Source: Strix aluco
Lineage: Eukaryota > Chordata > Aves > Strigiformes > Strigidae
Assembly: GCF_031877795.1 (NCBI RefSeq)
Contig: NW_027436632.1
Location: 186,001 to 250,000, forward strand
Direction of reading: 5' to 3'
DNA: 64,000 bases
Position 1 is the stretch's first letter; every line of letters begins with the position of its first letter. This document shows, piece by piece, positions 4,904 through 26,776 of the stretch. The position numbers were made by a program, and so were the translations under genes. Under the pieces are notes generated by a model. The model was not told the DNA's origin, did no database searches, and worked only from the letters and a program-made list of their open reading frames with translations.

Positions 4904-4965
4904 AAAACCTGAAAGAGCTCTCTACACATTGTGAGAAAAGAACCTACGAAGGACTCGATGAGTGA
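4904..4965 (+). pseudogene. pol: 3' end of pol (integrase C-terminus) of ERV-A
   Basis: About 20 codons in frame up to a TGA at 4963-4965. The assignment rests on position and on a short resemblance (the NLKEL region) to the final integrase residues of ERV-B before its stop at 16510. Everything upstream of this point is satellite. The next reading frame starts with an ATG at 4958 that overlaps the pol stop by a few bases. Confidence 0.5.
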
Positions 4966-5095
4966 GACCCTAATATTTTGTCCAATTGAAACTTTTATTT
5001 GTTTTTCTTTTATATGCATAAAGTGTAATGTATGTAAAGAAGGATGGGGGATTCATAATGCACATGGAATAAATCTCCGGTCTAGTTGTAATTAG
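4958..5095 (+). pseudogene. Cys/His-rich intergenic reading frame of ERV-A (unrecognised family)
   Basis: The ATG at 4958 overlaps the pol stop codon. The frame runs 45 codons to a TAG at 5093, and recognisable similarity continues past a second stop (TAA at 5102) to about 5130. The peptide has FC, then C-x4-C-x2-C-x2-C, then E-x-W-x2-H-x2-HG, then C-x2-C with the first stop inside the last pair. The same residues occur at the same spacing in ERV-B (16467-16700). The pattern suggests zinc binding. I recognise no family and propose no function. This copy is broken by the two stops. An alternative is neutral sequence that agrees by chance, but the gap-free match of Cys, His and Trp makes that unlikely. 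Confidence 0.6.
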
Positions 5096-5341
5096 TGTTA
5101 TTAACGAGAACAGAGATTAACTAATCAGGCCCTAAAAATTGGAGCAAAAACAGGAAAATAATTGAAGATTCTAAAATTTGACAGAAAATATTTACTAAAA
5201 GGATAAATCTTGAAAGAGAGTGCACTCACCCTAATTGGCCTACTGAATAACACCCTCAGAACCTAAGGGTGATCTGTAGAAAGCACATCTCCTGGGTCCC
5301 CTATCGTGATCCCGAGGTCAAAGATAAAAACTGGGAAACCT

Positions 5342-5578
5342 ATGTGTCCCGGGAATAGAGGCAAACGTACCCCTGAAGAATACGGCTGCTGCCAAGAAGA
5401 TGGAACACCCTGCTGCTCTAAGCAACAGAGTAGGCAGAGGAGGCAGAGACGTACCAAAGTGGGGAAAACTTTACTGCCCTACTCTGAAGAAAAAAAGGCC
5501 TCTGAGGGAAAAGGGTCAGACGAGAGTGCCAGACACCCTGATACAAAAGAGACTAAGAAAAAATATGCTAATCAATAG
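5342..5578 (+). CDS. Small Cys- and Arg-rich reading frame overlapping the start of env (ERV-A)
   Basis: A 78-codon frame from ATG 5342 to TAG 5576. A GTG-started version would begin at 5306. It has a CCQEDGTPCCSK segment, then an arginine-rich run SRQRRQRRTK, then a charged C-terminus rich in E, K and S. The last 60 codons overlap the env leader in another frame. The Arg-rich run is also encoded in ERV-B at the same place (SRRRRQRR, 16892-16915). Such motifs in retroviruses are usually RNA-binding and nuclear-localising, as in Rev-type proteins. That role is inference here. It lies in the same frame as the Cys-rich frame upstream, with stops between. It may be an independent spliced exon or fortuitous. 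Confidence 0.45.
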   Translation: MCPGNRGKRTPEEYGCCQEDGTPCCSKQQSRQRRQRRTKVGKTLLPYSEEKKASEGKGSDESARHPDTKETKKKYANQ

Positions 5579-7304
5579 AATCCCGCCAGTCTTCTATTGG
5601 AGCTATTGGATAGTCTGGCTAGGTGTATTAGCCACAATGAATACACTACCAGGATGGGCTAGAACGACTAACCAATCCCACCAACCTTTTGAACATACCC
5701 TAACTAATCAAATTATATGGCCTTGGACAGATGCTTATTATGGACATACAGGACGTATGGGTGCAGATTTGTATGGGACAGAGTTAGCAACTGCCATACT
5801 AAGCAATAACCTAACACTCCAAACATATAAATGGGAGAATTCATCCCATACCTGGACAGCTAAAAAAGGAGATGAGATACAGATAGGCTGCAGAGTATTC
5901 AATGTAAATGTGATAATAAGTCGGCACCCTTTAATTCAAACCGTCCGTCAGCCCCCTTTTACTCAAATCGTTATCAGAGACAAAACGGAATCTAAAATAG
6001 CTCAAACCCATTGTGAGTCAGAGGTCTGTTGGTATGCATTTACTGCAACCCAACCGGTGTCCATAATTTGTTTGGGAGGAACCAGGTCAAGAGATCAAGC
6101 TATATCTTTCCGATTTCCATTGAATATACAGGAGGAAACTACAACAACCACAACCCACGCTTCCAAAGAGACTACTCGGACTACTCATACTGTTCCAACA
6201 CAACCAACAGTCGTGCTTAGCCCAAGAATTTTTGAAATTGGACCATATGCAATTAGGAATACAGGTCAACAACAAATGCTGTTTAACCCGGCGTGGTCTC
6301 TCAAACAAGTTAAATTGCTGATGCAAAATAATGTTTCAAATATTCAGCCAGCCTGTTCACCTTTCCTAAAGACTTCTTACGAGGGATGGACAACCTGGCT
6401 GCAAAAACAAATTCCTCGCGCAAAAAGAACGCAGAGAGACTTAACCGGTGCTTTGGGAACAGGATTGGGAGTTTTAAATAGTATTGATTCGGAGGTGATA
6501 ATGAACAAATTGGCTACCTCAATTAGTGATTTAACTAATATACAAAGGCCTTTGCAATCTTCCTTATTGGCTTTGGGGGCTAACCAGTGGTTGTTGTCAA
6601 ATGTATTACCAAAAGGGGAAAAGGTAAATATAAAGGATCATGAATTGATTACAGATGCACTCAGTGTGCTCCAAAATAACCTCTCTTTAGCTCTCAGCTG
6701 CATCCAGGCTCAAATATGGATGCAGTCGATAGCTGCCTCAATTATAAGAGAAGGTGAAGAAGGTATTCTTCCTACTGAAATTCGGAGAATAATTTGGAAC
6801 AGTGCTACTAATTTTGAAAAGGAACTCCAATCCTGGTGGAACCTGGTAAACTTTACCTATGATCCCATCACAAACACAGCTACTACCTTTATACTCACTA
6901 TTTACAATGCCACCATATACCAAATTTATCCTATCATTGCATTAGGGCTGAATCACAACGGGACCATACTCTATCCTTTTGAGCATAGAGCATGGGCCCG
7001 AAAGGTAAACGAAAAATGGCAAACTGTCAATCTAGAGTCTTGCATTGTACGGGAACAACAAGGATTCATTTGTGAAGGCAATGCAATTGAGGCACAAGAT
7101 ATTTGTCTAGATACTGAACAAAATATTTGTCACTTTGAGGTCCATCCCAATGAAAATCCTAAAACAGTACTTATATATATTGGCAAAGGTTGTGTATGTT
7201 TGAGGACGGTTTGTGAATTCTTAACCGTAGACAAGATCATAGTAGAAACAAAAAAATTATTCAAATCTCTGTGTTTGCAATTTCACAAAGATAATTGGAT
7301 GTGA
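5400..7304 (+). CDS. env: Env polyprotein of ERV-A, long open frame with a late frameshift
   Basis: A 634-codon frame. An unusually long leader of about 60 residues with a basic KKKRPLR stretch precedes a hydrophobic signal-like segment (FYWSYWIVWLGVLATM). A surface subunit with several N-glycosylation sites follows. A furin-type RAKR site at residues 340-343 is followed by a glycine-rich, fusion-peptide-like segment and a leucine-rich heptad region. The transmembrane subunit has many cysteines late in the ectodomain (GKGCVCLRTVC) and I do not see the CX6CC motif. Reading shifts out of frame near the A-run at 7251-7256 and ends at 7304, while the related C-terminal part continues in another frame. 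The rest of the frame is open. ERV-B has lost its env and kept a different anchor type. Confidence 0.85.
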   Translation: MEHPAALSNRVGRGGRDVPKWGKLYCPTLKKKRPLREKGQTRVPDTLIQKRLRKNMLINRIPPVFYWSYWIVWLGVLATMNTLPGWARTTNQSHQPFEHTLTNQIIWPWTDAYYGHTGRMGADLYGTELATAILSNNLTLQTYKWENSSHTWTAKKGDEIQIGCRVFNVNVIISRHPLIQTVRQPPFTQIVIRDKTESKIAQTHCESEVCWYAFTATQPVSIICLGGTRSRDQAISFRFPLNIQEETTTTTTHASKETTRTTHTVPTQPTVVLSPRIFEIGPYAIRNTGQQQMLFNPAWSLKQVKLLMQNNVSNIQPACSPFLKTSYEGWTTWLQKQIPRAKRTQRDLTGALGTGLGVLNSIDSEVIMNKLATSISDLTNIQRPLQSSLLALGANQWLLSNVLPKGEKVNIKDHELITDALSVLQNNLSLALSCIQAQIWMQSIAASIIREGEEGILPTEIRRIIWNSATNFEKELQSWWNLVNFTYDPITNTATTFILTIYNATIYQIYPIIALGLNHNGTILYPFEHRAWARKVNEKWQTVNLESCIVREQQGFICEGNAIEAQDICLDTEQNICHFEVHPNENPKTVLIYIGKGCVCLRTVCEFLTVDKIIVETKKLFKSLCLQFHKDNWM

Positions 7305-7764
7305 CTTTTCCTATTTAGCCCCGGTCATGTCTTACGAATTCCTGCAATCCAATTATACATTAATACATAATTTACAACCTACACCCATTGGAATGAATCT
7401 CACTTTGGTTAGGCAGTTACTTCAACATAAAGACTTAATTAGAATTTTAGAGAAAATTAGAGAAAACGGACAGAAAACCTTAATAACTGTTCATCACAAT
7501 GTGGAAGAAATACACCGAGTCTTGGAAAGAGCAAAAAAGAATGCAGAACATAACTGGTGGGACACCCTTTTTGGATGGTCACCTACTGCTACAGGCATCT
7601 TGAACAAGTTGTGTCACCCCATTGTGGTTCTCTTGATATTAATCTTAATCAGTTTGACTTTGTCAATAATATTATATGTCATAACTTGGAGAATGATGCA
7701 ACGGGTAACATATCTGATATCTTCACCCGTCCAATACTCATTAAAGCCAAAAATGACCAATTAG
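7258..7764 (+). pseudogene. env: C-terminal part of ERV-A Env transmembrane subunit, out of frame with the main ORF
   Basis: Frame offset from the main env frame. It carries the end of the ectodomain (GCDFSYLAPV), a heptad-rich stretch, a tryptophan-containing pre-anchor region (WWDTLFGWSP) and a strong membrane segment (IVVLLILILISLTLSIILYV) before a short basic tail ending at 7764. An overlapping frame to 7862 encodes a longer charged tail (FRLKKTLLLSQQEL), so a second small indel may lie within the tail. The 7246-7260 A-run is the likely site of the first shift. Confidence 0.8.
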
Positions 7765-7840
7765 ATGATGACTTTAGATTGAAAAAAACTCTCCTATTAA
7801 GTCAACAAGAATTGCAACGATTTGATGAACAAAATGATAA

Positions 7841-7857
7841 AAAGAAAAAGGGGGGAT
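7841..7857 (+). other. Polypurine tract of ERV-A
   Basis: AAAGAAAAAGGGGGGATT immediately before the TGTGAT that starts the LTR. This is the expected plus-strand primer site. Confidence 0.85.
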
Positions 7858-8439
7858 TGTGATAGACAGTAAACTGTTTGTTCATCAAATTCCATAGAAG
7901 ATACTGGGAGCTCGTGACATGTTATTCCATAAACTATGTAGGCCTAAGCTTAATCTTAACTATTACACTGTGTAACGACTAACAGAATGTAAGTGCTTAT
8001 CTAAGTTGAAATGCTGAAGCAAGGACTCCTACTAGGCAAAAGACTGAAAAGAGGGAGAAAGGGGAGAAGGACAAAGGGGAGAACAAGAAGAAAAAAAAAG
8101 AGGGGTAGTGCTTATATTCTGTAAGATATAAACAAAAGCTTTGTGAGCCACTCTCAGGAAAGCAGGAAATACGAGGAGCTGGTGACATGAGGAAGACCCG
8201 GATGGAGCGACCCCCTAGCTGCAAAGTGCGCAGACGCAGGGTACACCTCTCAGAGAGACCCGATAACGGAAGGCGGAGGATATAAAAAAGACGGACCCTC
8301 GGGGAGTGATTGCGCGCCGTTGGTGGAGCAGGGACTCCCCGGCCGCCCAGCGCTGTTTTGCTTCTTGCCGCTTGCTAAATAAACAATTTAAATTTAATTA
8401 GTCCTAACTTGCATCATTTTGGCACGATAGTCTATAACA
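7858..8439 (+). repeat. 3' LTR of ERV-A (582 bp)
   Basis: Begins TGTGATAGAC after the polypurine tract and ends TCTATAACA before satellite. It contains a TATA box at 8281 (TATAAAA) and AATAAA at 8378, with a purine-rich stretch around 8045-8105. The R/U5 part (GCGCTGTTTTGC, CCGCTTGCTAA) resembles the ERV-B LTR; U3 does not. Confidence 0.85.
8281..8287 (+). promoter_or_regulatory. TATA box in ERV-A LTR
   Basis: TATAAAA roughly 100 bases upstream of AATAAA, the usual U3/R arrangement. Confidence 0.6.
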
Positions 8440-9775
8440 AATGTGACGTCATGTCACAGTGTGCAGCAGGTCAGTGGTGGCCATGTCACAGTGAGCAACA
8501 GGTCACTGGTAGCCATGTCACTGTGGGGCCAATGTCACAGTGGGCAGCAGGTCAGTGGTGGCCATGTCACTGTGGGGGCCATGTCACAGTGGGCAGCGGG
8601 TCAGTGGTGGCCATGTCAATTGGGGCCATGTCACAGTGAGCAGCAGGTCAGTTGTGACCATGTCACTGTGGGGCCTATGTCACAGTGGATAGCAGGTCAG
8701 TGCTGGCCATGTCACTGTTGGGCCATGTCACAGTGAGCAACAGGTCACTGGTAGCCATGTCACTGTGGGGCCAATGTCACAGTGGGCAGCAGGTCAGTGG
8801 TGGCCATGTCACTGTGGGGGCCATGTCACATTGGGCATCGTGTCACTGGTGGCCATGTCAATTGGGGTCATGTCACAGTGTGCACCAGGTCAGTGGTGGC
8901 CACGTCACAGTGAGCAACAGGCCACTGGTTGCCATGTCACTGTGGGGGCTATGTCACAGTGGGCAGCAGGTCAGTGGTGGCATGTCACTGTGGGGCCATG
9001 TCACAGTGGGCAGCAGGTCAGTGGTGGCCATGTCACTGTGGGGACATGACACAGTGGGCAGCGGGTCAGTGGTGATCATGTTACTGTTTGGGACATGTCA
9101 CAGTGGTCAGCAGGTCAGTGGTGGCCATGTCACTGTGGGTGATATATCACAGTGGGCAGCAGGTCAGTGGTGGTCATGTCACTGTGGTGGCCAGTAACAG
9201 TGGGCAGCAGGTCAGTAGTGGCCACGTCACTGTGTGGCCATGTCACACTGGGGAGCATGTCAGTGGTGATCATGTTACTCTATGGGACATGTCACAGTGG
9301 GGAGCAGGTCAGTGGTGGCCATATCACTGTGAAGTCATGTCACAGTGTGGAGCAGGTCAGTGGTGGCCATGTCACTCTGGTGGCCATGTCACAGTGGGCA
9401 GCAGGTCAGTGGTGATCATGTCACTATGGGGGCCAAGTCACAGTGGGCAGCAGGTCAGTGGTGGCCATGTCACTATGGGGGCCAAGTCACAGTGGGCAGC
9501 AGGTCAGTTGTGGCCATGTCACTATGGGGGCCATGTCACAGTGGGCAGCAGGTCAGTGGTGGCCATGTCACTATGGGGGCCATGTCACAGTGGGCAGCAG
9601 GTCAGTGGTGGCCATGTCACTGTGGGGGACATGTCACAGTGGTCAGCGTGTCAGTGGTCGCCATGTCACTGTGAGGTCATGTCACAGTGTGCAGCAGGTC
9701 AGTGGTGGCCATGTCACAGTGAGCAACAGGCCACTGGTGGTCATGTCACTGTGGGGGCTATGTCACAGTGAGCAG
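8440..9775. repeat. Satellite array, second block
   Basis: Same ~49 bp unit as the first block, between ERV-A and ERV-B. Its last units end in GTGAGCAG at the ERV-B insertion point. Confidence 0.95.
9771..9775. repeat. Left 5 bp target-site duplication of ERV-B
   Basis: AGCAG before the LTR equals AGCAG after the 3' LTR at 17779. Removing the provirus and one copy gives an ordinary satellite unit (GTGAGCAGCAGGTCAG), which confirms the insertion point. Confidence 0.9.
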
Positions 9776-10279
9776 TGTAATAAAACATATATGGTATTTG
9801 TTATTCAAATCTCAAGGGGAAAAAGAAGTTGTAGTCAGGATGTTGTGGCCGAACAGTTTTGTAATTCTCTTATGTAAATAAGAAATAAGATATATGTATA
9901 TAGTTTCTATTGTTAAAATCAGTTGTTAGAAGGGAGCTAAAATGGCCCCCATCTTCAAGCCACTACAAAAACACTTGTGCTGAGTCATCCCCCCTTCTGT
10001 GACGGAAACCTGAGACAAGCCCGCCGAAACCTGAGAAAAGCCCGGGAAAACTTGTTTACAACTTTGCAGACCCCTCAGGGTACGCCCATCATGAATATGG
10101 ATGAAGCCTACACTATAAAGGGACTCGGTTCTGCCGGGTCAGGTGTGTCCTGGTAGAGCAGAGACTCCCGGCACACCCAGCGCTGTTTTGCTCACTCGCC
10201 GCTTGCTAATAAATTTATTATTGATCACTAAAAATTGAGAAGTGGTTATTTCCCACTAAATTACTTTTAATCTATAACA
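9776..10279 (+). repeat. 5' LTR of ERV-B (504 bp)
   Basis: TGTAATAAAAC ... TCTATAACA. TATAAAG at 10114 and AATAAA at 10208. Identical by eye to the 3' LTR at 17275-17778. Confidence 0.95.
10114..10120 (+). promoter_or_regulatory. TATA box of ERV-B 5' LTR
   Basis: TATAAAG followed about 90 bases later by AATAAA; repeated at the same place in the 3' LTR. Confidence 0.7.
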
Positions 10280-10283
10280 AATT

Positions 10284-10301
10284 TGGTGCCGTGACTCGGA
10301 T
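10284..10301 (+). other. Primer binding site, tRNA-His type
   Basis: TGGTGCCGTGACTCGGAT, four bases after the LTR end, is complementary to the 3' end of vertebrate tRNA-His (…GAGTCACGGCACCA). Some class I endogenous retroviruses use this primer. Confidence 0.85.
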
Positions 10302-11160
10302 CCAGATCTTTTGGTGCGAAACCCCAGATAGGGGAGGCGCCCTATCTTCGGATAGCCCCAGTCTGAGGATCTCGTGGCCAAAACGCTGGATATCCGAACC
10401 CCTTTTAATTCGGACTCGGGAGTGAGCAAAAGAATCTGCAGAACCCCTTAAATTTTGTGCACGAAGACCGATCAAAGACTCCGGGGAGGAGTAAGTATTT
10501 GCATTTGTGCAGTTATCCGTTCGGTTGGGGTTGGTAATCCCAGAGTGTGAATGAGTGAGAGGTCTCGAAGAGATCACCCGAGTGCGGACCCTTTAGTAGT
10601 GCAGTTCTCGTAGCCTGCGAAGGAGCGAGTCACGAATAAGGGGAGCGTGTGTGTGTGTGAAAAAAGGCACTCTGGAAGATGGGACAGAGGGAAAGCAAGC
10701 CCTCTGGATCCATGGGTGGGGGCAAGGAAGAATTGCCGGATATCCCACTAGGAGGTTGATAATCCCAGAGTGCGAGTGAGTGGCACTCTGGAAGATGGGA
10801 CAGAGGGAAAGCAAGCCCTCTGGATCCATGGCAGGGGGCAGCTGAACTCCTCCCGCTGCTGGCTCCAGCTGGGACAGGGCTTGTTCCCGGGGCGCCACCG
10901 TCCGACCCGAGCAGCGTGCCCAAGCCGAGCCCTGGAGCAGTGTTGCGGAGCCTGGCCCAGCGTGGGGGAGGGGGGGGGCAGAGCTGCCCACTCCCCAGCC
11001 GGGAGGGCTTGTCCCGAGCACCTAGCTGCCCCGGGGTGGGGGTTGGGGCTGGAGCAGGGGGCACCGAGCAGCCCCAAATTAGCGTTTAGGCTTCTGCTCA
11101 GAGACAGGCTGCAGTAAACTGTCTCGAGGGGGCTCTGTGCTGAGCACCACACACCCCCCC
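10302..11160 (+). other. ERV-B leader with GC-rich segment
   Basis: Untranslated leader and presumed start of gag. No convincing matrix frame is visible. The part from about 10830 to 11150 is much more GC-rich than the rest of the element and ends in a run of about 16 C (near 11151-11166). It may be acquired or expanded sequence. Confidence 0.5.
10666..10831 (+). repeat. 50 bp direct repeat in the ERV-B leader
   Basis: 10666-10715 and 10782-10831 are identical over 50 bases, offset 116. Related sequence upstream (TAATCCCAGAGTG at about 10537 and 10760) shows that the duplicated block is longer but has diverged. Probably a template-switch duplication in the leader. Confidence 0.8.
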
Positions 11161-11259
11161 CCCCCCTTCTAACCCGCTCATACTCGTAACCAATGATTCT
11201 GACCCTGAATCTCCCGGACCCCCTCAGCGGGTTACCCGAAGCAAAGTTAAGGAAGGGAG

Positions 11260-11914
11260 ATTATACCCCCTTAGAGAAATGCTTGTGCCAGGAGTGGGGG
11301 CACAAGGGGAACCGGGAGCGGGGTATGTCGCTGTTCCCCTCAACACTGGAGATGTGAGAGATTTTTAAAAAAGAAATGGGGAACTTATTAGAGGACCCGC
11401 TTGGCGTAGCCAAACAGGTGGACCAGTTTCTTGGCCCAGATTTATATACCTGGGATAAATTACAATCTATCCTAGGAATTCTATTTACTATGGAGGAACG
11501 AGATATGATCAGGAGGGCAGGTATAAGACTTTGGGACCAGCAACATCAAGTGGGTCCCACAGCAGATCAGAAGTGGCTGTTGGTAAAACCCAACTGGAAT
11601 AATCAAGACCCAGGCCACCAAACCCACATGGCAAATTTAAGAATTATCATAATTCAAGGAATTAGAGAGTCAGTTCCCCAAGGGCAGAATATTAATAACA
11701 GTTGTACTCAGGAATAGATCCTGCCACCCCTGTGGGGCAGGCATTATTAAAGACTCAGTTTGTGGCTAAGTCTTGGGCAAATATTAGGAAGAAGCTAGAA
11801 AAGATAGAAGATTGGCAAGGGAGAGGAATTGCTGAGAGAAGCTCAGGAAGTTTAGGTGGATTCCTACTTGAAGTGGTGGTATTGTTCTCGTTACCAGTTT
11901 GGATACCCAGATAA
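11260..11914 (+). pseudogene. gag: gag capsid fragments of ERV-B
   Basis: Pieces of a gammaretrovirus-like capsid in three frames. One has YPLRE and VPLNTGDVRDF before a T/A-run shift near 11350. A second runs 11376-11717 (VAKQVDQFLGPDLYTWDKLQ, IRRAGIRLWDQQ). A third runs from about 11702 (IDPATPVGQALL, KSWANIRKKLEKIEDWQGRG) and leaves frame again near 11830. No complete Gag can be read. It breaks off where the 11915-12908 segment begins. Confidence 0.75.
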
Positions 11915-12908
11915 TGATCTATTTAAATGTTGTTCCACCTCTTCATAACTCGTTTATTATTCAGTATACCTTTGCCTGCTTGACTTGGTGATCAGAAGGT
12001 GACAGCTTAGAACTTTCTATCCTCTTGGTATTTTAAGGACTGTAGACAAGGATCAAAAGATACTGTGATAGATACAAGCCCTTGGCTAGCTTCAGCAGCT
12101 TTTTTTTTTTTTCTTAACAGTGATGAATCAATTTAAATAAGAAAATCGGAGTAAAACATTATCAGAGTGAAAGCAATAGTCCAAGAGGGAAAAAAGTGAG
12201 CAGATCTGCAGCTTAATCTGGCTGCCTGTTCTTCAAGCAGACAGCTCTCTTACATCATTGGCAGGAGTTGGAAAAAAAAAAAAAAGAGAATCAGGGTTCT
12301 AGCATACAGGCAGGTATATGGGCTGGGGAGCCAAGTTCAAGCTAATTTGCCCCCAGACCACATTCTTTTGGAGCTGCTAATCTGGTTTGTACTTCTTAGC
12401 CAAAAGACAGGGAACTGACATAATTGTAGCACACTGACTAGGCAGCTCATAAATGTTGTGTCTTTTCCAAAGAAGGAGGATGCTGCTGTGCCCTTTGCAG
12501 ACTTTCTCCTCACAGGCCATGGCCTAGAGCTTACCAGTTTTGTAATTTGTGATGTGCTATGTAAACACCGCGCACTGCGTGTGTGGTATAGCTGCCCAGA
12601 TGCTTTATTTGATGGCATCTGGAAGTACATGGGCAACAGTCTCGGTAGATTTAAACTGCCCTTGCTCTAAATGTCTAGACCCAGGAGTAGGAGTTTCAGG
12701 TTGAGAGGAGGCAATGCAGAGTGTGTAACAACTCAAACATGCAGCAAACTGCATTATTTTAGCCTGAAAACTGTTCTGTGCATTCCCCAGTACCTGCATG
12801 TAATAAAGCTGTGCAGAACATGGATGTTTTATGTGATGATTACCTGGAGACTATGGTTTCTTTGGGATCAGAGATTTTCATTCATTGAATGGTTCTGCCT
12901 GCTTTAAT
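11915..12908. other. ~1 kb segment of non-retroviral appearance inside ERV-B gag
   Basis: Lies between capsid remnants and the zinc knuckle. I see no Gag similarity. It has stops in all frames, a long pyrimidine run followed by CTTAACAG near 12100-12120 (splice-acceptor-like), an A-run near 12271 and AATAAA near 12802. It looks like captured genomic or transcript sequence. Short open frames on both strands resemble nothing I know. Confidence 0.5.
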
Positions 12909-13007
12909 ATGAAGGAAGTGGAATGTTTTTATTGCAAAAGGAAGGGGCATGTGAAGAAGGTTTGCTGGAGGAGAATCCAAGATGAGAAAATGTTTTCTGA
13001 AAATTAG
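12909..13007 (+). pseudogene. gag: Nucleocapsid zinc knuckle of ERV-B
   Basis: A short frame with one C-x2-C-x4-H-x4-C knuckle (CFYCKRKGHVKKVC) followed by basic residues and a stop. A single knuckle is usual for gammaretroviruses. It sits directly before protease, as expected at the gag/pol border. Confidence 0.85.
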
Positions 13008-13024
13008 TGGGGTCAGGAACTCTA

Positions 13025-13227
13025 TGTGCTGGGAACCCAAAGAACAAAGAGCCCTTGATAAAACTTAAAGTGGGTCCTCAGCGACAAGAGGTAGAGTTCC
13101 TTGTGGACTCAGGAGCCGAAAGATCTACCATTCAGGCTCTGCCTCCAGGCTGTAAAGTATCATCAAAAAAAAAATCAGTGTAATAGGGGCTAAAGGTGAA
13201 CCGTTTGAGGCCCCGGTTCTTCATGAT
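13025..13227 (+). pseudogene. pro: Protease region of ERV-B
   Basis: Contains the active-site sequence FLVDSGAERST (GAC of the catalytic Asp at 13106). The frame breaks in a run of ten A at 13165-13174 and continues in the RT frame with the flap and C-terminal part (YNLLGRDLI). The catalytic Asp is intact. Confidence 0.8.
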
Positions 13228-14952
13228 GTGATTGTTGAATCAAAATGCAAATATGTGATTGGAACATTTTTATTATTACCAGAAGCAGATTATAATTTAC
13301 TTGGACGGGATCTGATTATAGAATTGGGAATTAATCTGGAAGTAGAAGAAAGAGAATTCAAAGTCAGATTATGCCCCCTCACAGTGGCGGATGAAGAAAA
13401 GATTAACCCAGAAGTATGGTATACCCCAGAGACAGTGGGTAGATTGGATATCACCCCCTTCGAAGTCACCATTAGGAACCCAGAGATCCCGACTAGAATC
13501 AAACAGTATCCCTTACCGCAAGAAGGCAGGAGAGGCTTAAAGCCTGAAATAGAGAGACTCCTTAATCAGGGGCTATTAGAACCTTGTATGTCACCTTTTA
13601 ATACTCCAATATTGCCCGTTAAGAAGGCAGATGGGAGTTATAGATTAGTGCATGACTTAAGAGAAATCAACAAAAGAACTGTAACCAGATTTCCTGTAGT
13701 GGCGAACCCCCATACTTTACTTAGTCAATTGAATCCTGAAAATCAGTGGTATAGCGTAATAGACTTGAAAGATGCTTTTTGGGCATGTCCTCTAAAAGAG
13801 GAGTGTAGAAATTATTTTGCTTTTGAATGGGAAGACCCAGATACCTTTAGGAAACAACAGCTGAGGTGGACAGTTTTGCCTCAGGGTTTTACTGAGTCCC
13901 CTAACCTCTTTGGACAAGCCCTCGAACACATCTTAAAAGATTATAACTTGGGGGAAGGTGTTACTTTAGTACAATATGTAGATGACCTTCTGTTAGCAGG
14001 AGGCAACCCAGAGATGGTACGAAAGGAAAGCATTAAGTTGTTAAATTTCTTAAGCCTCCAAGGATTAAAAGTATCCAAATCTAAATTGCAATTTGTAGAA
14101 GAAGAGGTGAAGTATTTAGGTCACTGGATTAGTAAAGGGAGCAAGAAATTAGACCCAGAGAGGGTAAATGGAATTCTTTCTCTCCAGGCTCCCAAAAACA
14201 AACGACAGGTTAGGCAGCTCCTTGGACTACTGGGGTACTGTAGACAATGGATTGAAAATTATAGTACAAAAGTTAAATTTTTATACCAGAAATTAACAAA
14301 AGACGGGTTGCTTAAATGGATCCCAGACGATGAGGAAAAATTAGAAAAATTAAAAACTGACTTAGTCAACGCTCCAGTATTGAGTTTACCAGATATAAGA
14401 AGGCCCTTTTATTTATTTGCCAATACTGAAGATGGCACGGCATTTGGGGTATTAACCCAAGAATGGGCTGGGAAAAGGAAGCCTGTGGGATACATATCTA
14501 AATTGTTAGACCCCGTAAGTAGGGGATGGCCAACATGCCTCCAGGCGATAGTGGCAGTGGCCTTGTTAGTAGAAGAGGCTAATAAAATTACATTTGGGGG
14601 GAATCTGAAGGTGTTGACTCCTCATAACATTAGGGGAGTGCTTCAACAAAAAGCGGACAAATGGATAACAGACGCCAGGCTCCTCAAATATGAAGGAATA
14701 TTAATACACTCACCAAAGTTAGAGATTGAAGTAACTAGTCTTCAAAACCCAGCACAATTCCTATATGGGGAGCCAAGCGAAAGTTTAAACCATAATTGCC
14801 TCCATACCATTGAAGAACAGGCAAAAATCAGGCCAGACTTAGAAGAAACAGAATTAGAAGAAGGGGAAAAGCTGTTTGTGGATGGATCCTCTAGAGTGGT
14901 AGAAGGAAAAAGAAAATCAGGTTATGCAATTATTAGTGGAACCCCACCCTAG
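13175..14952 (+). pseudogene. pol: Reverse transcriptase and start of RNase H of ERV-B
   Basis: Open frame from the protease C-terminus through RT. Fingers/palm carry LPVKKADGSYRLVHDLREIN, LPQGFTESPNLFGQAL and the catalytic YVDD (tat at 13975). The thumb/connection has LGHWISKGSKKL and LLGLLGYCRQWIE. It then enters RNase H (KLFVDGSS) and stops at 14952 after a one-base shift in a C-rich stretch. The polymerase catalytic residues are preserved. The order and motifs fit gammaretrovirus-like Pol. Confidence 0.9.
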
Positions 14953-15896
14953 AGGTAGTAGAATCAGGACCACTGAGTCCTAGCTGGTCGGCTCAAGCTT
15001 GTGAACTATATGCAGTACTAAGAGTGTTACAGATTTTAAAGGAAAAAGAGGGAACCATTTATACAGACTCTAAGTACGCCTTTGGAGTAATTCACACTTT
15101 TGGAAAAATTTGGGAAGAAAGGGGACTCATTAATTCACAAGGAAAAGGGCTAATACATGAGTCTCTAATTATCCAGACTCTCCAAGCATTAAGAGGTCCT
15201 AAGAAAATAGCAGTAGTGCATATAAGAGGACACCAACAGGGAACCTCACTACAGATCAGGGGAAATATTCTAGCTGATCAAGAGGCAAAACGGGCTGCAC
15301 TACTAGCATTGATGGTAACAGAATCAAACACAAACGAAAGAACAGACCCCACCAAATTAGGATTCACGTTTACTAACCAAGAGAAAGAAAAATTGAAACA
15401 AATGGGAATTAATGAAAAACAAGGGGAATGGGAATTACCTGATGGGAGGAAGGTTCTCCCGAAGGCAATGGCTTGGAGAGTTATGAAGGATTTCCATACT
15501 AAAACTCACTGGGGAGTACAAGCATTGGTAGACCAGTTTGCTATTAAATACATGTGCATAGGAATTTATAATGTTGCTAAGGGAATAATAAAAAGCTGTT
15601 TAACTTGCCAGAAAATTAATAAGTACCAATTAAGAGAAAAGATTCAAGGGGGACGGGATATGGCATACAGACCATTTGGAAGAATTCAAATCGATTTTAC
15701 AGAACTACCAAAAGTAGGACGGTACAAATACCTCCTAGTATTGGTAGATCATCTCACTCATTATGTGGAGGCCTTTCCCACCACTCGAGCTACAACAAAT
15801 ACTGTGGTAAAAAAAAAAATAGTCTTAGAAAACATCATCCCTAGGTATGGAAATATAGAAGTAAGCGATTCGGACAGGGGTCCCCACTTTGTCTAA
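14946..15896 (+). pseudogene. pol: RNase H remainder and integrase N-terminal/core of ERV-B
   Basis: Continues RNase H in another frame: ACELYAVLRVL with the catalytic Glu, then YTDSKYAFGVIH with Asp, then the HIRGHQQG segment and a final acidic residue. Integrase follows, with a zinc domain (H-x3-H in HTKTH and CLTC), then core Asp residues in IDFTELP and SDSDRGPHF. The frame ends at 15894 by another one-base shift just after the second core Asp. Confidence 0.85.
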
Positions 15897-16512
15897 AATA
15901 ATCAGAGAGACATTGACTTCCCTGGGGACCAAGTGGGAATTCCACACTCCCTGGCATCCACAAAGCTCAGGAAAAGTAGAAAGAACGAATGGAGAAATCA
16001 AGAAACAACTTACCAAATTAATGTTAGAAACAAAGATGTCTTGGGTTAAGTGCTTACCCCTAGCACTTCTGAATATCCGGACCCAGCCCCGAACTGATAC
16101 TGGAATATCCCTGTTTGAAATGCTATATGGTATGCCCTATGATACGGAATTTCCCACTGATCACCCAGTATTGGAAAAAGACAATTTGCAACCATACTTA
16201 ATAAACCTCATGAACAGGAGAAAAGAACTACGCAAAAAAGGGATGGTAGTACAGAGACCTCCATTAGAAATTTGTATGCACTCCATAAGACCTGGAGACA
16301 AGGTGTTAATAAAAACTTGGAAAGAATCCTCTGTTACCCCTCGTTGGGAGGGACCGTTTCTTGTTATACTCACAACAGAGACTGCTGTCCAAACTGCTGA
16401 AAAGGGATGGACTCATGCTACCAGAGTGAAAGGACCCTTAACGCCTGATCACTGGGAAGTAGCTGAAACATCAGGAGATCTGAAACTAGTGTTGCGAAGG
16501 AAGAAGGACTAA
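15889..16512 (+). pseudogene. pol: Integrase core end and C-terminal domain of ERV-B
   Basis: Carries the third catalytic residue (Glu in SSGKVERTNGEI), then LLYGMPYDTEFP-like core end and the C-terminal DNA-binding segment PRWEGPFLVILTT typical of gammaretrovirus integrases. Ends RRKKD and TAA at 16510. The domain is complete once in frame; only the junction to the preceding ORF is shifted. Confidence 0.85.
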
Positions 16513-16700
16513 ATGAATTTTGTAAAACCCCTAACTGTGTTTGTTATCCTTTTGTGTGTTTTAAATGCACTACTTGTGAGGAAAGTTGGTGGGCGCACTG
16601 CGTCCACGGCTATTCCCCAAAGGAATACTGTGACCAGTGCTATAAAAGAGAAAGAAAATTAACCAGTCATCAACAGGAAAAATTGTGTGCATACCAATGA
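16467..16700 (+). CDS. Cys/His-rich intergenic reading frame of ERV-B (unrecognised family)
   Basis: A frame open from 16467 to TGA 16698, offset from pol and overlapping its last 15 codons. From residue FC onward: C-x4-C-x-C-x4-C-x2-C-x2-C-x7-C-x9-C-x2-C, with WW, H and HG between, then YKRERKLT. Ten cysteines in about 60 residues suggest one or two zinc-binding modules. No ATG precedes the cysteines, so expression would need splicing, frameshifting, or a start lost in this copy; ERV-A has an ATG at the matching place. The homologous frame of ERV-A shares the Cys, E, W, H, HG, RE and LT positions with no gap. I do not recognise the family. Confidence 0.6.
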   Translation, partial: NIRRSETSVAKEEGLNEFCKTPNCVCYPFVCFKCTTCEESWWAHCVHGYSPKEYCDQCYKRERKLTSHQQEKLCAYQ

Positions 16701-16858
16701 ACCTAAGCCCCATAACGTGAATATAGTACAAACTCTTTGCAAATTCCAAATACTCCAAGTGCCCTGTACGATCCCACAAGTGAAAGCCTGGAACTGGGAG
16801 GCGTTAAGGTGTCGATAACAAGACCCTAACCCCACAGAATACGACTGCTGCCGAGAAG

Positions 16859-16933
16859 ATGGAAAGCCCCGCTGCTCTAAGGAATGAACGGAGTAGGCGG
16901 AGGAGGCAGAGACGTATGGAGAGGGGAAAATAA
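16859..16933 (+). pseudogene. env: Remnant of env leader / Arg-rich frame of ERV-B
   Basis: ATG at 16859 begins MESPAAL, matching the first residues of the ERV-A Env leader. A small insertion relative to ERV-A then moves reading into the frame that encodes an Arg-rich run (RSRRRRQRRMERGK) before TAA. In ERV-A the Arg-rich run is in a different frame from the env start, so this short ORF is a fusion of the two frames. Confidence 0.55.
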
Positions 16934-17075
16934 GAAAGGCCTCGAAGCAACCAGTTCAGGTGATTGTTGTGGCAAGGAGAACTGGAAAGCATGGGGAAGG
17001 AAAAGATCTGAGCATGCAAATCCTGTCGCAAGACAGAAAGGGGACACGTTTGTACAATGAGCTAGTAATTGGAAG

Positions 17076-17231
17076 ATGAACCCACCAACTCTCCTCACTA
17101 TAGTAGTCATTTGGGCTATGGGAGGAATCGCAATTTTGATGTTAAACCTCCATTTTATGAAACCCCTAGTGTTATTATTAATTGGGTTAACTTTCGGACC
17201 ATGTATATTTAACAAGTCTGTGATGTGTTAA
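17076..17231 (+). CDS. env: 51-codon vestigial env: signal-like segment joined to a membrane anchor
   Basis: ATG 17076 to TAA 17229. The N-terminus is a signal-peptide-like hydrophobic segment (LLTIVVIWAMGGIAILML). A second hydrophobic segment with LTFGPCIFNK follows; this resembles the membrane anchor of gammaretroviral transmembrane subunits. All of SU and the TM ectodomain are absent, and the two ends are in frame. It is located where the env 3' end should be, just before the polypurine tract. It could be an expressed micropeptide or simply deletion debris. The anchor type differs from ERV-A Env, implying env exchange in the family. Confidence 0.55.
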   Translation: MNPPTLLTIVVIWAMGGIAILMLNLHFMKPLVLLLIGLTFGPCIFNKSVMC

Positions 17232-17257
17232 GGAGATTTGAAAAACAAAATTAGTTA

Positions 17258-17274
17258 AAAGAAAAGGGGGGAAT
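17258..17274 (+). other. Polypurine tract of ERV-B
   Basis: AAAAGAAAAGGGGGGAAT directly before the 3' LTR. Confidence 0.85.
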
Positions 17275-17778
17275 TGTAATAAAACATATATGGTATTTGT
17301 TATTCAAATCTCAAGGGGAAAAAGAAGTTGTAGTCAGGATGTTGTGGCCGAACAGTTTTGTAATTCTCTTATGTAAATAAGAAATAAGATATATGTATAT
17401 AGTTTCTATTGTTAAAATCAGTTGTTAGAAGGGAGCTAAAATGGCCCCCATCTTCAAGCCACTACAAAAACACTTGTGCTGAGTCATCCCCCCTTCTGTG
17501 ACGGAAACCTGAGACAAGCCCGCCGAAACCTGAGAAAAGCCCGGGAAAACTTGTTTACAACTTTGCAGACCCCTCAGGGTACGCCCATCATGAATATGGA
17601 TGAAGCCTACACTATAAAGGGACTCGGTTCTGCCGGGTCAGGTGTGTCCTGGTAGAGCAGAGACTCCCGGCACACCCAGCGCTGTTTTGCTCACTCGCCG
17701 CTTGCTAATAAATTTATTATTGATCACTAAAAATTGAGAAGTGGTTATTTCCCACTAAATTACTTTTAATCTATAACA
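17275..17778 (+). repeat. 3' LTR of ERV-B (504 bp)
   Basis: Same length as, and by line-by-line comparison identical to, the 5' LTR. Satellite follows directly after the target duplication. Confidence 0.95.
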
Positions 17779-20700
17779 AGCAGCAGGTCAGTTGTGGCCA
17801 TGTCACTATCGGGGGCATGTCACAGTGGGCAGCAGGTCAGTTGTGGCCATGTCACTATGGGGGGCATGTCACAGTGGGCAGCAGGTCAGTTGTGGCCATG
17901 TCACTATGGGGGCCATGTCACTATGGGGGCCATGTCACAGTGGTCAGCGGATCAGTGGTGGCCATGTCACTGTGGGGGCCATGTCACAGTGGGCAGCGTG
18001 TCAGTGGTGGCCATGTCACTGTGAGGTCATGTCAAGGTGGGCAGCAGATCAGTTGTGGCCATGTCACATTGGGCAGCAGGCCACAGGTGGTCATGTCACT
18101 GTGGGGCTATGTCACATTGGGCAGTGGGTCAGTGGTGGCCATGTCACGGTGGGGCCATGTCACAGTGGGCAGCACGTCAGTGGTGGGCATGTCACTGTGG
18201 GGGCCATGTCACAGTGGGCAGCAGATCAGTGGTGGCCATGTCACTTTGCGGCCATGTCACAGTGAGCAGCAGGTCAGTTGTGGCCATGTCACTATGGGGG
18301 CTATGTCACAGTGGGCAGCAGGTCAGTGGTGGTATGTCACTGTGGGGCCCATTTCACAGTGGGCAGAAGGTCAGTGGTGGCCATGTCACTGTGGGGGCCA
18401 TGTCACATTGGGCAGCAGGTCAGCAGTGGCCACATCACTGTGGGGCCATGTCACAGAGGGCAGCATGTCAGTGGTGATCATGTTACTGTTTGGGACATGT
18501 CACAGTGGGGAGCGGGTCACTGGTGGCCATGTCACTGTGGGTGCTACATCACAGTTGGCAGCGGTTCAGATGTGGCCATGTCACTGTGAGGTCATGTCAC
18601 AGTGGGCAGCAACTCAGTTCTGGCCATGTCCCTATGGGGGCCATGTCACAGTGGGCAGCAGGTCAGTGGTGGTATGTCACTGTGGGGCCCATTTCACAGT
18701 GGGCAGAAGGTCAGTGGGGGCCATGTCACTATGGGGGCTATGTCACATTGGGCAGCAGGTCAGTGGTGGCCATGTCACAGTGGGGGCCATGTCACAGTGG
18801 GGAACGTGGCAGTTGTGGTCATGTCACTGTGAGGTTATGTCACAGTGTGCAGCAGGTCAGTGGTGGCCATGTCACTGTGAGGGCGATGTCACAGTGGGCA
18901 GCAGGTCAGTGGTGGCCATGTCACTGTGGTGGCCAGTCACAGTGGGCAGCAGGTCAGTAGTGATCATGTTACTGTATGGGACATGTCACAGTGGGCAGCG
19001 TGTCAGTTGTGTCCATGTCACTGTGAGGTCATGTCACAGTGTGCAGCAGGTCAGTGGTGGCCATGTCAAGGTGAGCAACAGGCCACAGGTTGCCATGTCA
19101 CTGTGGGGGCTATGTCACAGTGGGCAGCAGGTCAGTTGTGGCCAAGTCTCTATGGGGGCCATGTCACAGTGTGCAGCAGGTCAGTGGTGGCCATGTCACA
19201 GTCAGGTCATGTCACAGTGGGCAGCGGGTCAGTGGTGGCCATGTCACTGTGGGGGGCATGTCACAGTGGGCAGCAGGTCAGTAGTGGCCACGTCACTGTG
19301 GGGCCATGTCACAGTGTGCAGCAGGTCAGTGATGGCCATGTCACAGTGAGCAACAAGCCACTGGTGGCCATGTCACTGTGGGGGCTATGTCACAGTGGGC
19401 AGCAGGTCAGTGGTGGCCATGTCACTGTGGGGGCCATGTCACAGTGGGCAGCGTGTCAGTTGTGGCCATGTCACTGTGAGGTCATTTCACAGTGGGCAGC
19501 AGGACAGTGATGGCCATGTCACAGTGAGCAACAGGCCACTGGTTGCCATGTCACTGTGGGGGCTATGTCGCAGTGGGCAGCAGGCCACTTGTGGCCATGT
19601 CACTATGGGGGCTATGTCACAGTGGGCAGCAGGTCAGTGGTGGCCATGTCACTATGGGGGCCATGTCAGTGTGGGCAGCAGGTCAGTGGTGGCCATGTCA
19701 CTATGGGGGCCATGTCACATTGGGCAACAGGTCAGTGGTTGCCATATCACTGTGGGGGCCATGTCACAGTGGGCAGCAGGTCAGTAGTGATCATGTTACT
19801 GTTTGGGACATGTCACAGTGGGGAGCAGGTCACTGGTGGCCATGTCAGTGTGGGTACACATCACATTGGGCAGCGGTTCAGAGGTGGCCATGTCACTGTG
19901 AGGTCATGTCACAGTGTGCAGCAGGTCAGTGTTTGCCATTTCACTGTGGGGCCATGTCACAGTGGGCAGCGTGTCAGTGGTGGCCATGTCACTGTGGGGC
20001 TATGTCACAGTGTGCAGTGCGTCAGTGGTGGCCATGTCACTGTGGGGGCCATGTCACATTGGGCAGCAGGTCAGTGGTGGCCATGTCACTGTGGGGCCAT
20101 GTCACAGTGGGCAGCAGGTCAGTGTTGGCCACTTCAGTGTGGGGACATGACACAGTGGGCAGCGGGTCAGTGGTGATCATGTTACTGTTTGGGACATGTC
20201 ACAGTGGGCAGAGTGTCAGTGGTGGCCATGTCACTGTAGGTGCTACATCACAGTTGGCAGCGGTTCAGATGTGGCCATGTCACAGTGAGAAACAGGCCAC
20301 TGGTGGCCATGTCACTGTGGGGGCTATGTCACAGTGGGCAGCAGGTCAGTGGTGGCCATGTCTCTATGGGGGCCATGTCACAGTGGGCAGCAGGTCGGTG
20401 GTGTCCATGTCACTATGGGGGCCATGTCACAGTGGGTAGCAGGTCAGTGGTGGCCATGTCACTATGGGGGCCATGTCACAGTGGGTAGCAGGTCAGTGGT
20501 GGCCATGTCACTATGGGGGCTACGTCACAGTGGGTAGCAGGATAGTGGTGGCCATGTCACTATGGGGGCTATGTCACAGTGGGTAGCAGGTCACTGGTGG
20601 CCATGTCACTGTGGGGCCATGTCACAGTGGGAAGCAGGTCAGTGGTGGCCATGTAACTGTGGGGTCCATGTCACAGTGGGCAGCAGGTCAGTGGTGGCCA

Positions 20701-21788
20701 TGTCACTTGGGGCCATGTCACAGTGAGCAGCAGGTCAGTTGTGGCCATGTCACTGTGGGGGACATGTCACAGTGGTCAGCGTGTCAGTGGTGACCATGTC
20801 ACTGTGGGGAGCATGTCACTTTGGGCAGCAGTTCAGTGGTGGCCATGTCACTATGGGGGCCATGTCAAAGTGGGCAGCGTGTCAGTTGTGGCCATGTCAC
20901 TGTGAGGTCATGTCACAGTGTGCAGAAGGTCAGTGGTGGCCATGTCACAGTGAGCAACAGGCCACTGGTTGCCATGTCATTGTGGGGGCTATGTCACAGT
21001 GGGCAGCAGGCCACTTGTGGCCATGTCACTATGGGGGCCATGTCACAGTGGGTAGCAGGTTAGTGGTGGCCATGTCACTGTGTGGCTATCTAACAGTGGG
21101 CAGTGGATCAGTGGTGGTATGTCACTGTGGGGCCCATGTCACTGTGGGCAGCAGGTCAGTGGTGGCCATGTCAATGTGGGGGCCATGTCACATTGGGCAG
21201 CAGGTCAGTTGTGGCCATGTCACTGTGGTGGCCAGTCACAGTGGGCAGCAGGTCAGTGGTGGCCACGTCACTGTGGGGCAATGTCACAGTGGGCAGCATG
21301 TTAGTGGTGATCATGTTACTGTATGGGACATGTCACAGTGGGGACCAGGTCAGTGGTGGCCATGTCACTGTGAGGTCATGTCACAGTGTGCAGCAGGTCA
21401 GTGGTGGCCATGTCATAGTGAGCAACAGGCCACTGGTTGCCATGTCACTGTGGGGGCTATGTCACAGTGGGCAGCAGGTCAGTGGTGGCCATGTCACTGT
21501 GGGGCCATGTCACAGTGGGCAGCAGGTCAGTGGAGGCCATGTTACTGTGGGGGCCATGTCACAGTGGGCATCAGGTCAGTGGTGGCCATGTCACTATGGG
21601 GGCCATGTCACAGTGGGCATCAGGTCAGTGCTGGCCAGATCACTGTGGCGGTCATGTCACAGCGGGCAGCGCGTCAATGGTGACCATGTCACTGTGGGTG
21701 CTAGGTCACAGTGGGCAGCAGGTGTAGTGGTGGCCATGTCACTGTGGAGGCCATGTCACAGAGGGCATCATGTCAGTGGTGGCCATGT
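17779..21788. repeat. Satellite array, third block
   Basis: Continuation of the ~49 bp array interrupted by ERV-B, starting with the right copy of AGCAG at 17779-17783. More divergent units appear near its right end. Confidence 0.95.
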
Positions 21789-22096
21789 GTAAGAGTCGGT
21801 CAGAAGATCAGCATTGTCTCAACATTGTCATCAGGGACATGGACATTGAGGGACCCGACAACGACCTTTTTGGAACACAGTTGTCAATCTCTGGAGTGGA
21901 ATGTGGTGCAAAGTCTCCTGAATGCAGAACTGTGTGGCACAGCCAGTGTTGTGCTCTTCTCCTGAGCACTGACCCGTGTGGTGCAGGCAGTGCCGTGCTG
22001 TTCTTTGGTGCATGAGCCGTGTAATACAAAGAGTGTTGTGCTATTGTTCGGTACCTGGGCCTAGCCGGAGCTGTTAGAGTTAATTGCACAGCCCTT
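21789..22096. other. Unassigned segment with a degenerate ~45 bp triplication
   Basis: Between the satellite and the LTR-like unit. Three related stretches from about 21925 to 22045 share TGTGG..CAG.CAGTG..GTGCT.TTCT. No recognisable protein. It may be ERV U3 or internal sequence. Confidence 0.4.
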
Positions 22097-24744: not shown

Positions 24745-25269
24745 TTAACCCTTTTTCCAGGGTCGCACCCATCGACTCGGAACCCATCTAGTGCCAGTAT
24801 CGGTAATAACGCAGGCATAGCCTTGACCCGTCATTTTTAGTTCCACAGGTCCTTTCCACTCTCCTATAGTAACATCTTTGTACTGAGCAAAAGCACCATC
24901 TCCACACCGGCTTATATCAGATTTCAGATCCATGCTATGTATTACTACTGGTGGTTCCTCCCTATCACCTGTGAGCCGTAAGTACTTTAACACATACACC
25001 GCTTTTGCAAATGGTTCTGCAGCAGCCAAGACCTCTCCCCCATTTTGTTTTTGCAAAAGCACTTTTAAAGTTTGATGCGCTCTCTCCACTATGGCTTGCC
25101 CCGTGGGGGAATGTGGTATACCTGTGATGTGACGTATACCCCAGAGTTGACAAAAAAGAGCAAATTTTTGAGAGGTATAGGCTGGTCCGTTATCAGTTTC
25201 ACGGATCAATTGAACTAATTTCCCATATTCTCTGGCGCATTCTGCCCTACCACGATGGTAACTTCTCAC
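24745..25269 (-). pseudogene. pol: Integrase core and C-terminal domain, class II provirus
   Basis: A 174-codon frame with the second core Asp in ETDNGPAYTS, the catalytic Glu in GQAIVERAHQTLK and a C-terminal domain (WKGPVELKMTGQGYACVITD, then WVPSRWVRP) typical of alpha/beta-retrovirus integrases. It starts abruptly at a junction with the internal LTR piece, so the first core Asp and zinc domain are missing here. Confidence 0.85.
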
Positions 25270-25433
25270 AGCTTAGTACTTTTTCACAGTTCAGTTTTGC
25301 AGCTGTCCGCTGGTTTTGCCTGCTACCTTGACACATCTCAGCAGTTTCTTATCTATCTTCCAAGGCCTGTTCTTCATCAACCCTAGCTATTGCTTAGAGG
25401 CTGTGTAAGGCTGACAGGCCAATGCCTCCCACA
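25270..25433 (-). repeat. Internal LTR fragment with its polypurine tract
   Basis: On the minus strand AAAGAAAGGGGAGT is followed by TGTGGGAGGCATTGG, the expected junction of a polypurine tract and an LTR start, but the sequence does not match the outer LTRs. About 160 bases later it joins integrase sequence. Confidence 0.5.
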
Positions 25434-26340
25434 ACTCCCCTTTCTTTGTTTTGCAGCAGCACCTGCAAGACTTATTTCGAGACTTTATCAATTAAGGGTT
25501 AGGCAAACTTCAAAAAAAAACAGCATACTTAAAACAGCTTCACAGAATGCTAGAGACAATACAGCAGTTACAGTTATTAGGTAAAAAAGAGTAGGGTAAT
25601 TTCAGTACCCATAACTAAGGGATATGACTAAATACTACAAAAATAAACGATAAGGAAAATACGAAATAACACGCTTGCTTAATGGGGTGCTAACATTCAG
25701 ATCCGCAATTGCTGGGGAACCCTGGATGCATCGAGAATTTAGAGTGCCCTTCCTCACAAACCAGAAATCCTACGCGATGCGTCCATCTGTAGGTGAGGCA
25801 TCCAAAGTCGCTGCAAGCAGGTCCAGCCTCATATATCCAAATCAACAGGCCAAAATAACTGGCAATTTTCTTTGAGCGGAAATATCTGATTTCATCCTCC
25901 TGTTGGGTTCCACCCAGAGCCTGGCCACCACTCAAGGGGGAAAACCAAGGGAGTTTCTAATAAGGTTAAACACTTAAGTTCCTAATTCTTAATATTGCTA
26001 AAGAAAGAAAGTCAAATACACACATTCTTACAGCATTTCATCCTTATTAATAGCTACATTCTGTCTAAGCTACATCTTTCACTAGTGACTAGTAAGCCTA
26101 TAAATTTCATCAAGGAGTTGCAATTACTGTTAGCATTTTCTCTTAAAAGAGTTGGCAACTGCAGTGTGATTAAGGACAGAGATAGTGTATTTTGTCCTAT
26201 TGCAGCAGCAAGCATTACCCATACATTCTGCTTAAATGATCAGTTGAAGAGACCACAAACTGTCGACACAGGGGCATCCACAGCACACACAGCTGGCTCC
26301 TGAGTGTCCACCAAAAGCTGCCTCTCACGCCTCAGGTGTA
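25434..26340 (-). other. Decayed internal sequence, probably env of a second element
   Basis: No long frame. A hydrophobic stretch just before the internal polypurine tract is consistent with an Env membrane anchor. Otherwise I recognise nothing. Confidence 0.35.
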
Positions 26341-26776
26341 GTTGCACACAGCTTGCTGGTAACCACCGGGACTGTAACCTGTGAAAACACAAGCATAACC
26401 TCTTCCCCAGGTTATTAAAGGATATGGTCCTTCCCAGTTACACTTTCCAGGACTTGAGCCTTGCCCTGGATTTCTTGTTGATCTGATATCTGTGATGAGA
26501 AGTGCTGCAATATTGACGGCACCTATTTTAACGATCCAAATGCAGCAAAGGGAGTGATGTCAGATTGCCATAATTCTGAGGAGTGAGTCCCCGAGGGTTG
26601 ACACCACTAGCTGTTGAAGAGAAGGAGTCCTTCTGGCATTCAGGGCAAGTCGCAATGATGTCTTCAGCCTGAGGCCTTGATAAAGAGAACTGGTTTTGTA
26701 TTGCCCTGGCATTTTGGTGGAAAAATTGCATGTGAAAGCTGTGCTTACCGAAATTCTGAGATGGCATTAGCTGCAC
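26341..26776 (-). pseudogene. pol: Integrase zinc domain and a separate C-terminal-domain fragment
   Basis: The minus-strand frame at 26776-26528 has a zinc domain (His pair in HSFHMQFFH and CPEC) followed by GLTPQN. Near 26440-26370 is a second GYACVF segment (NWEGPYPLITWGRGYACVFT). The core between them is mostly deleted. It belongs to a different integrase copy from 24745-25269. Confidence 0.65.

Follow-up and report, generated by a model that had tools for sequence, protein, structure and literature searches.

Two diverged endogenous retroviruses (ERVs) in the 64-kb stretch of DNA analysed here (the window), the host of which is presumed to be a bird on the basis of the original prediction, contain, between pol and env, two small reading frames which are conserved from one copy to the other and show frame-specific selection. 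The first of them, a Cys/His-rich frame (ORF1), is present where the original prediction had located it, at 16515-16700 in the provirus designated ERV-B and at 4958-5130 in the one designated ERV-A. The second (ORF2) was newly found in this study, and judged from its codons it appears to be a conserved frame as well. One isolated small accessory gene had been proposed; the conservation of ORF1 agrees with this, but the proposal was incomplete, since a second conserved frame follows. The whole evidence for selection on the two frames was drawn from the two copies in this one window (Table 1).

Table 1. Location of the features of the two ERVs (window coordinates)
Feature	Position	Strand	Details
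ERV-B 5' LTR	9776..10280	+	505 bp exact match; last base possibly belongs to the target-site repeat
ERV-B primer binding site	from about 10284	+	after the 5' LTR
ERV-B gag p30-like piece	11358..11717	+	Pfam Gag_p30 E 3.5e-6, 27.1 bits vs cut-off 27.4
ERV-B pol	13156..16512	+	pieces 13156-14952, 14937-15896, 15865-16512: RT, RNase H, integrase
ERV-B ORF1	16467..16697	+	77 codons stop to stop; stop 16698-16700; conserved core 16518-16664
ERV-B ORF2	16663..16815	+	no ATG; stop 16816-16818; tested stretch 16669-16800
ERV-B env-start block	16836..16930	+	conserved as DNA; presumed env ATG 16859
ERV-B 3' LTR	17275..17779	+	505/505 bases identical to 5' LTR
ERV-A ORF1 copy	4958..5122	+	ATG 4958-4960; conserved core 4976-5122; in-frame stops 5093-5095 and 5102-5104
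ERV-A ORF2 copy	5182..5355	+	inner stop 5248-5250; end stop 5356-5358; tested stretch 5206-5337
ERV-A env	5328..7764	+	two open pieces, different frames
ERV-A env-start block	5377..5468	+	conserved as DNA; presumed env ATG 5400

Results

Organization of ORF1 in the two copies

ORF1 is located between pol and env in both ERVs, and the order of ORF1, ORF2 and the env-start block is common to them. In ERV-A the reading is open from the ATG up to 5092, where two in-frame stops follow that were absent from the original prediction, and in ERV-B an in-frame ATG is absent from the entire frame (16467-16697). The length of the open stretch of 77 codons in ERV-B is by itself unremarkable, as 80 codons are reached in 5.5% of shuffles. 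Both copies have the same lattice, C-x6-C-x4-C-x2-C-x2-C-x6-H-x2-HG-x6-C-x2-C, with seven conserved Cys and two conserved His. The frame and the spacing had been described properly in the original prediction, with the exception that the set C-x4-C-x2-C-x2-C begins, and does not end, with the Cys located six residues after FC. The motif C-x2-C-x-E-x-W-x2-H-x2-HG occurs twice in the window, once in each ORF1, and in none of 100 shuffles. The first third of ORF1 is T-rich. The ATG of ERV-A had been reported to overlap the pol stop: the two frames do overlap, the ATG standing 5 bases before a TGA (4963-4965), but the frame closed by this TGA is only presumed to be pol, because too little of the ERV-A pol remains.

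Conservation of ORF1 at the protein level

The two ORF1 cores were aligned codon by codon from FC to LT (ERV-A 4976-5122, ERV-B 16518-16664). Identical are 20 of the 49 residues and 80 of the 147 nucleotides (54%), and the 49 codons align without a gap, in agreement with the claim of an ungapped spacing over about 50 residues despite the diverged DNA. Immediately upstream of FC none of six residues match in this register; a tblastn alignment reaches further upstream with one gap (from 4931 in ERV-A and 16470 in ERV-B), where the similarity is weak.

Every ungapped 49-codon stretch of ERV-A 4880-7870 was compared with those of ERV-B 10281-17274 on the same strand, and among these 19,492,254 pairs ORF1, with a score of 135, is the single best, no other pair reaching 135; besides its own diagonal only one other scores 60 or more, which is that of ORF2. 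Shuffling of the ERV-A residues reached 135 in 0 of 20,000 cases, even when the best of 21 registers was taken. In a neutral simulation, where the same nucleotide divergence was placed at random sites (10,000 runs), the expected score was 32±19 versus the observed 135, which no run reached, and 10 of the 13 Cys, His and Trp of ERV-B are retained in ERV-A versus 3.8 expected (0 of 10,000). The scores of the other two frames over the core are within the null ranges. An overlapping frame which starts at 16513, the first ATG after pol in ERV-B, and encodes a hydrophobic peptide was rejected as a candidate (score 33 versus a null of 26.6±14.6).

According to Nei-Gojobori counting on 47 codon pairs (two stop-containing pairs were dropped), ORF1 has saturated synonymous sites, with pS 0.95 versus pN 0.35, a contrast that is partly conditioned because the alignment was found via protein similarity, and that was matched by 3 of 5000 simulations. 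The other frames over ORF1 gave pS/pN of 0.54/0.44 (45 pairs) and 0.54/0.38 (38 pairs). The contrast of ORF1 is concentrated in the last 33 codon pairs (pS 1.14, pN 0.35), and it is not significant in the first 14 codons alone (pS 0.51, pN 0.35). With the ERV-B ORF1 protein as query, tblastn on the window (default statistics, no masking) found ERV-A at E 9e-12; with the stops kept in the query and the composition correction switched off the value was 4e-12, and the reverse-strand control frame over ORF1 was far weaker (E 0.007).

The predicted selection on the protein level is thus well supported by the frame-specific pS/pN, the simulations and the shuffles, on the scale of two copies, and ORF1 appears to have been conserved as a protein and not as DNA. 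An extra frame selected in this way, found here in two copies, is what complex retroviruses with an accessory gene possess.

Pattern scans with ORF1, RT and env in a viral contig collection, and with RT in a genome contig collection, gave no confirmed relative. A degenerate form of the ORF1 motif is present in 6 of the viral contigs, in 3 distinct short frames, which by a rough estimate is about the chance number, and no meaning is claimed for it.

A second conserved frame

Neither copy has an ATG within the ORF2 frame. Its score is 64 versus -0.8±14 in the neutral simulation (0 of 10,000), and its pS of 1.03 and pN of 0.46 (43 codon pairs) form a contrast which was reached by 1 of 5000 simulations. 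The identities at the three codon positions are 22, 23 and 12 of 44, and the other frames over ORF2 are within the null. In tblastn the frame alone gave a modest E of 3e-4; the value was 9e-5 when the alignment extended into the DNA-conserved env-start block, where the reverse-strand control gave 1.6e-4. Between the tested stretches of ORF1 and ORF2, ERV-B has 4 bases and ERV-A has 83. Neither copy has the two in one frame, and since the frame step from ORF1 to ORF2 is not equal in the two ERVs, no single fixed frameshift joins both. The end stop of ORF2 is followed by the presumed ATG of env after 41 bases (ERV-A) or 40 bases (ERV-B). The ORF2 pieces had no significant match in the fold and family databases searched.

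The presumed start of env and the env of ERV-A

The env-start blocks of the two ERVs are 82% identical as DNA over 96 aligned columns, and all codon positions are conserved in the pieces tested. The presumed env start, at an ATG common to both copies, reads MEHPAAL / MESPAAL. An EYxCC/basic block was considered as a third gene and rejected, as a 14-codon piece of it is conserved at all codon positions and its three frames are at the null; this block is probably the env start or an RNA element. Downstream of ORF1, in another open frame, ERV-A has a basic RQRRQRR run.

The CX6CC motif, typical of the TM part of gamma-type Env, is absent from both open env pieces of ERV-A. For the first piece neither Pfam nor, up to E 1, PDB gave a match, and the second had Pfam matches only below the curated cut-offs. 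As a side observation, this C-terminal piece weakly resembles the baculovirus F protein family PF12259 (E 0.0073, 15.4 bits versus a cut-off of 24.1); a phage holin family scored slightly better (E 0.0022), likewise below the threshold.

Searches for the fold and expression of ORF1

ORF1 gave no significant match in Pfam, where zf-C2H2 was the best (E 0.16, below its cut-off), and no match in NCBIfam. The ERV-B ORF1 protein matched nothing significantly in PDB; at E up to 10 only two LIM proteins were found, TRIP6 (E 0.34) and CRP1 (E 5.8), and these matches have the C-x2-C-x17-C-x2-C spacing that is seen in ORF1. A profile of the two ORF1 sequences retrieved only ribosomal protein L33 (E 1.3), and the AlphaFold2 model built from them was of low confidence (mean pLDDT 45) and was left unused for fold search. 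With its seven conserved Cys and two conserved His, ORF1 would have enough potential ligands for two zinc sites.

The splice acceptor candidates for ORF1 are weak. The ATG of ERV-A ORF1 stands 22 bases after a candidate near 4936, which lacks a pyrimidine before its AG. A TAR-like hairpin in R was rejected, as its stability did not exceed that of mononucleotide-shuffled sequences (200 shuffles; z -0.19 and -0.10).

The two proviruses and their class

The ERV-B primer binding site presumably reads as tRNA-His, and the target-site repeat is GCAG or AGCAG, that is, 4 or 5 bp. Of the three open pol pieces the first and third share one frame and the second is in another. Among the PDB matches listed for the ERV-B RT, the top ten, which we take to be MLV-type RTs (1mml is named MMLV), have E values from 6.5e-130 to 5.5e-62, and the next is 7kse_A with 7.7e-37. 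The C-terminal domain of the integrase is also of MLV type (MLVIN_C, 39.9 bits versus a cut-off of 29.2). The lineage had been called gammaretrovirus-like in the original prediction, which agrees with the MLV-like RT and integrase of ERV-B; these support an assignment to class I, in an RT comparison that contained no epsilonretrovirus RT, and it is only the gag-pol features that argue for the name gammaretrovirus-like.

ERV-B should be young, since its LTRs are identical, and it is not autonomous, because env is nearly missing (only a 15-residue match at the start of env is left, tblastn E 0.42), pol is split in three open pieces in two frames, and gag is broken. A provirus with identical LTRs that is yet defective looks as if it had recently spread with help in trans. 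The left side of ERV-A is cut by a satellite array, beside which a few tens of bases of pol are left; its 3' LTR is related to that of ERV-B (84% over 64 columns).

Discussion

In our opinion the pol-env interval probably held at least one real small gene, and ORF1 is best explained as encoding an accessory protein that binds zinc and was translated from a spliced mRNA. This product, some 60 residues long and with its Cys/His lattice fixed, would most likely fold around two zinc ions. ORF1 might be read as the first frame of a spliced, env-type mRNA, and the position of the ERV-A ATG after a candidate acceptor is consistent with the predicted splicing. The protein may have been a small adaptor, either tuning the expression of the viral RNA or binding a host factor, and ORF2 could represent a second exon, encode another part of the ORF1 product, or code for a protein of its own. 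The weakest point of the zinc binding, splicing and adaptor role that we infer for ORF1 is the missing ATG in ERV-B, so that a spliced-in start is needed or the start has been lost.

Alternatively, ORF1 and ORF2 could be remnants of the N-terminal leader of a longer Env precursor, the frame of which was broken by indels. Both directly precede env, as the short distance from ORF2 to the env ATG indicates, ORF2 is without an ATG, and the env-like ORF3 of the avian ERV Ovex1, with 873 residues, is also described as longer than usual in the accessible text (PMC2717909). This origin is nevertheless unlikely: the two frames differ in both copies by an unequal step, ORF1 of ERV-A has an ATG of its own, and the ATG common to both copies is located downstream, in the env-start block.

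That ORF1 derives from a host gene by capture of a zinc-finger exon, e.g. the second half of a LIM domain, and has no selected viral role is quite improbable. The C-x2-C-x17-C-x2-C-Y spacing is that of the second LIM zinc site, and the PDB search with the ERV-B protein, up to E 10, retrieved LIM proteins alone, but even the better of these (E 0.34) is not significant, and in Pfam no LIM family was matched up to E 1. LIM domains possess another zinc site ahead of C-x2-C-x17-C-x2-C, which is absent in the 17 residues before the C-x2-C of ERV-B, where there is no room for it; the conserved W, H and HG of ORF1 are extra and are not LIM features, and the selection was seen in a comparison of two proviruses that have diverged.

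A C-terminal extension of Pol, produced by frameshift or readthrough, would account for the opening of the ORF1 frame ahead of the presumed pol stop in both copies and for the weak one-gap similarity upstream of the ERV-A ATG; we regard it as very improbable, as the ERV-B pol finishes after an MLV-type integrase domain and the ERV-A ORF1 possesses an ATG. Least probable, and already largely refuted, is that the similarity arose by chance, through base composition, or from an RNA element, e.g. the tract of a splice acceptor: the T-rich first third could be a polypyrimidine tract and the env-start block is conserved at all codon positions, but the ORF1 score is beyond the residue shuffles, and conservation in one frame with saturated synonymous sites is found mainly in the last 33 codon pairs.

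An accessory protein encoded by ORF1 would have partial counterparts in known systems. Lentiviral Tat is likewise small and Cys-rich, and ERV-A has its basic run downstream of ORF1, but in both copies that run is outside ORF1, and the R hairpin test was negative. No Tat match to ORF1 was obtained in the PDB search at E up to 10, and solved Tat chains are present in PDB. Betaretroviral Rem and Rec, env-leader RNA export proteins, are small regulatory products encoded at the start of env, whereas ORF1 and ORF2 of the ERVs are not in the env frame. The P50 protein of MLV differs from ORF1 in that it derives from gag; ORF1 would be a gene in its own right in the pol-env interval.

The statements that follow refer to the accessible parts of the papers cited. 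P50 is a gammaretroviral protein translated from an alternatively spliced RNA, and it is called accessory by its authors (PMC10496198), so that the earlier remark on gammaretroviruses as normally free of accessory genes was overstated. Rem is named in PMC6692512 and rec in PMC1224870, and in the latter Jern and others point out how difficult it is to recognise an accessory gene not yet known. Snakehead retrovirus (SnRV) is a complex retrovirus with ORF1, ORF2, ORF3 and 3'ORF of 52, 94, 76 and 205 codons or residues; it resembles the ERVs in having several small extra frames and, in its 3'ORF, a cluster of Cys together with a basic region (PMC12193657), and differs from ERV-B with its MLV-like pol, a comparison made by description. 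Ovex1 and GGLTR11/TERV are avian and, like ERV-A, have an env without the gamma-type CX6CC motif; according to its authors Ovex1, the env of which is unusual, lacks obvious accessory ORFs, in contrast to the ERVs here with ORF1 and ORF2, a comparison made by description (PMC2717909). Captured host genes are described in crocodilian ERVs, with no frame like ORF1 in the part covered (PMC4299795), and such a frame is likewise absent from the parts covered of PMC8278194, PMC3758190, PMC9562234 and PMC10496198. No account of ORF1 was found in the open-access literature, as far as its accessible text goes, subscription papers and preprints being outside this scope.

Our more far-reaching proposal is a tentative one. 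The lineage could be a complex retrovirus that infected birds and had an MLV-like polymerase. In the pol-env interval it would have carried either two small selected genes or a single gene of two exons, the first frame encoding an undescribed zinc-binding fold, and the family would have been active recently, as the identical LTRs of ERV-B suggest. Gammaretrovirus-like viruses are the model of the simple retrovirus, and if the conserved zinc-binding-type gene between pol and env is real, the divide between simple and complex was crossed in birds too. At the level of the sequences, our results suggest that an additional gene was once present in a viral group regarded as simple. The ORF1 motif provides a short, testable query for bird genomes and transcriptomes.

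Additional features of the window

The leader of ERV-B (10281-11350) is about 1 kb long, and a sequence of 59 bases is directly repeated in it (at 10666 and 10782, 96.6% identity). The gag region of ERV-B from the p30 piece to a CCHC-type zinc knuckle (11718-13000) is devoid of long plus-strand frames and may contain an insert. Short-repeat arrays at 247-4934, 8431-9775 and 17780-21790 flank both ERVs, ERV-B being inside one, and false open frames result from them. On the minus strand, at 24745-30185, the apparent remains of a class II ERV were noticed, with Gag_p24 and integrase pieces.
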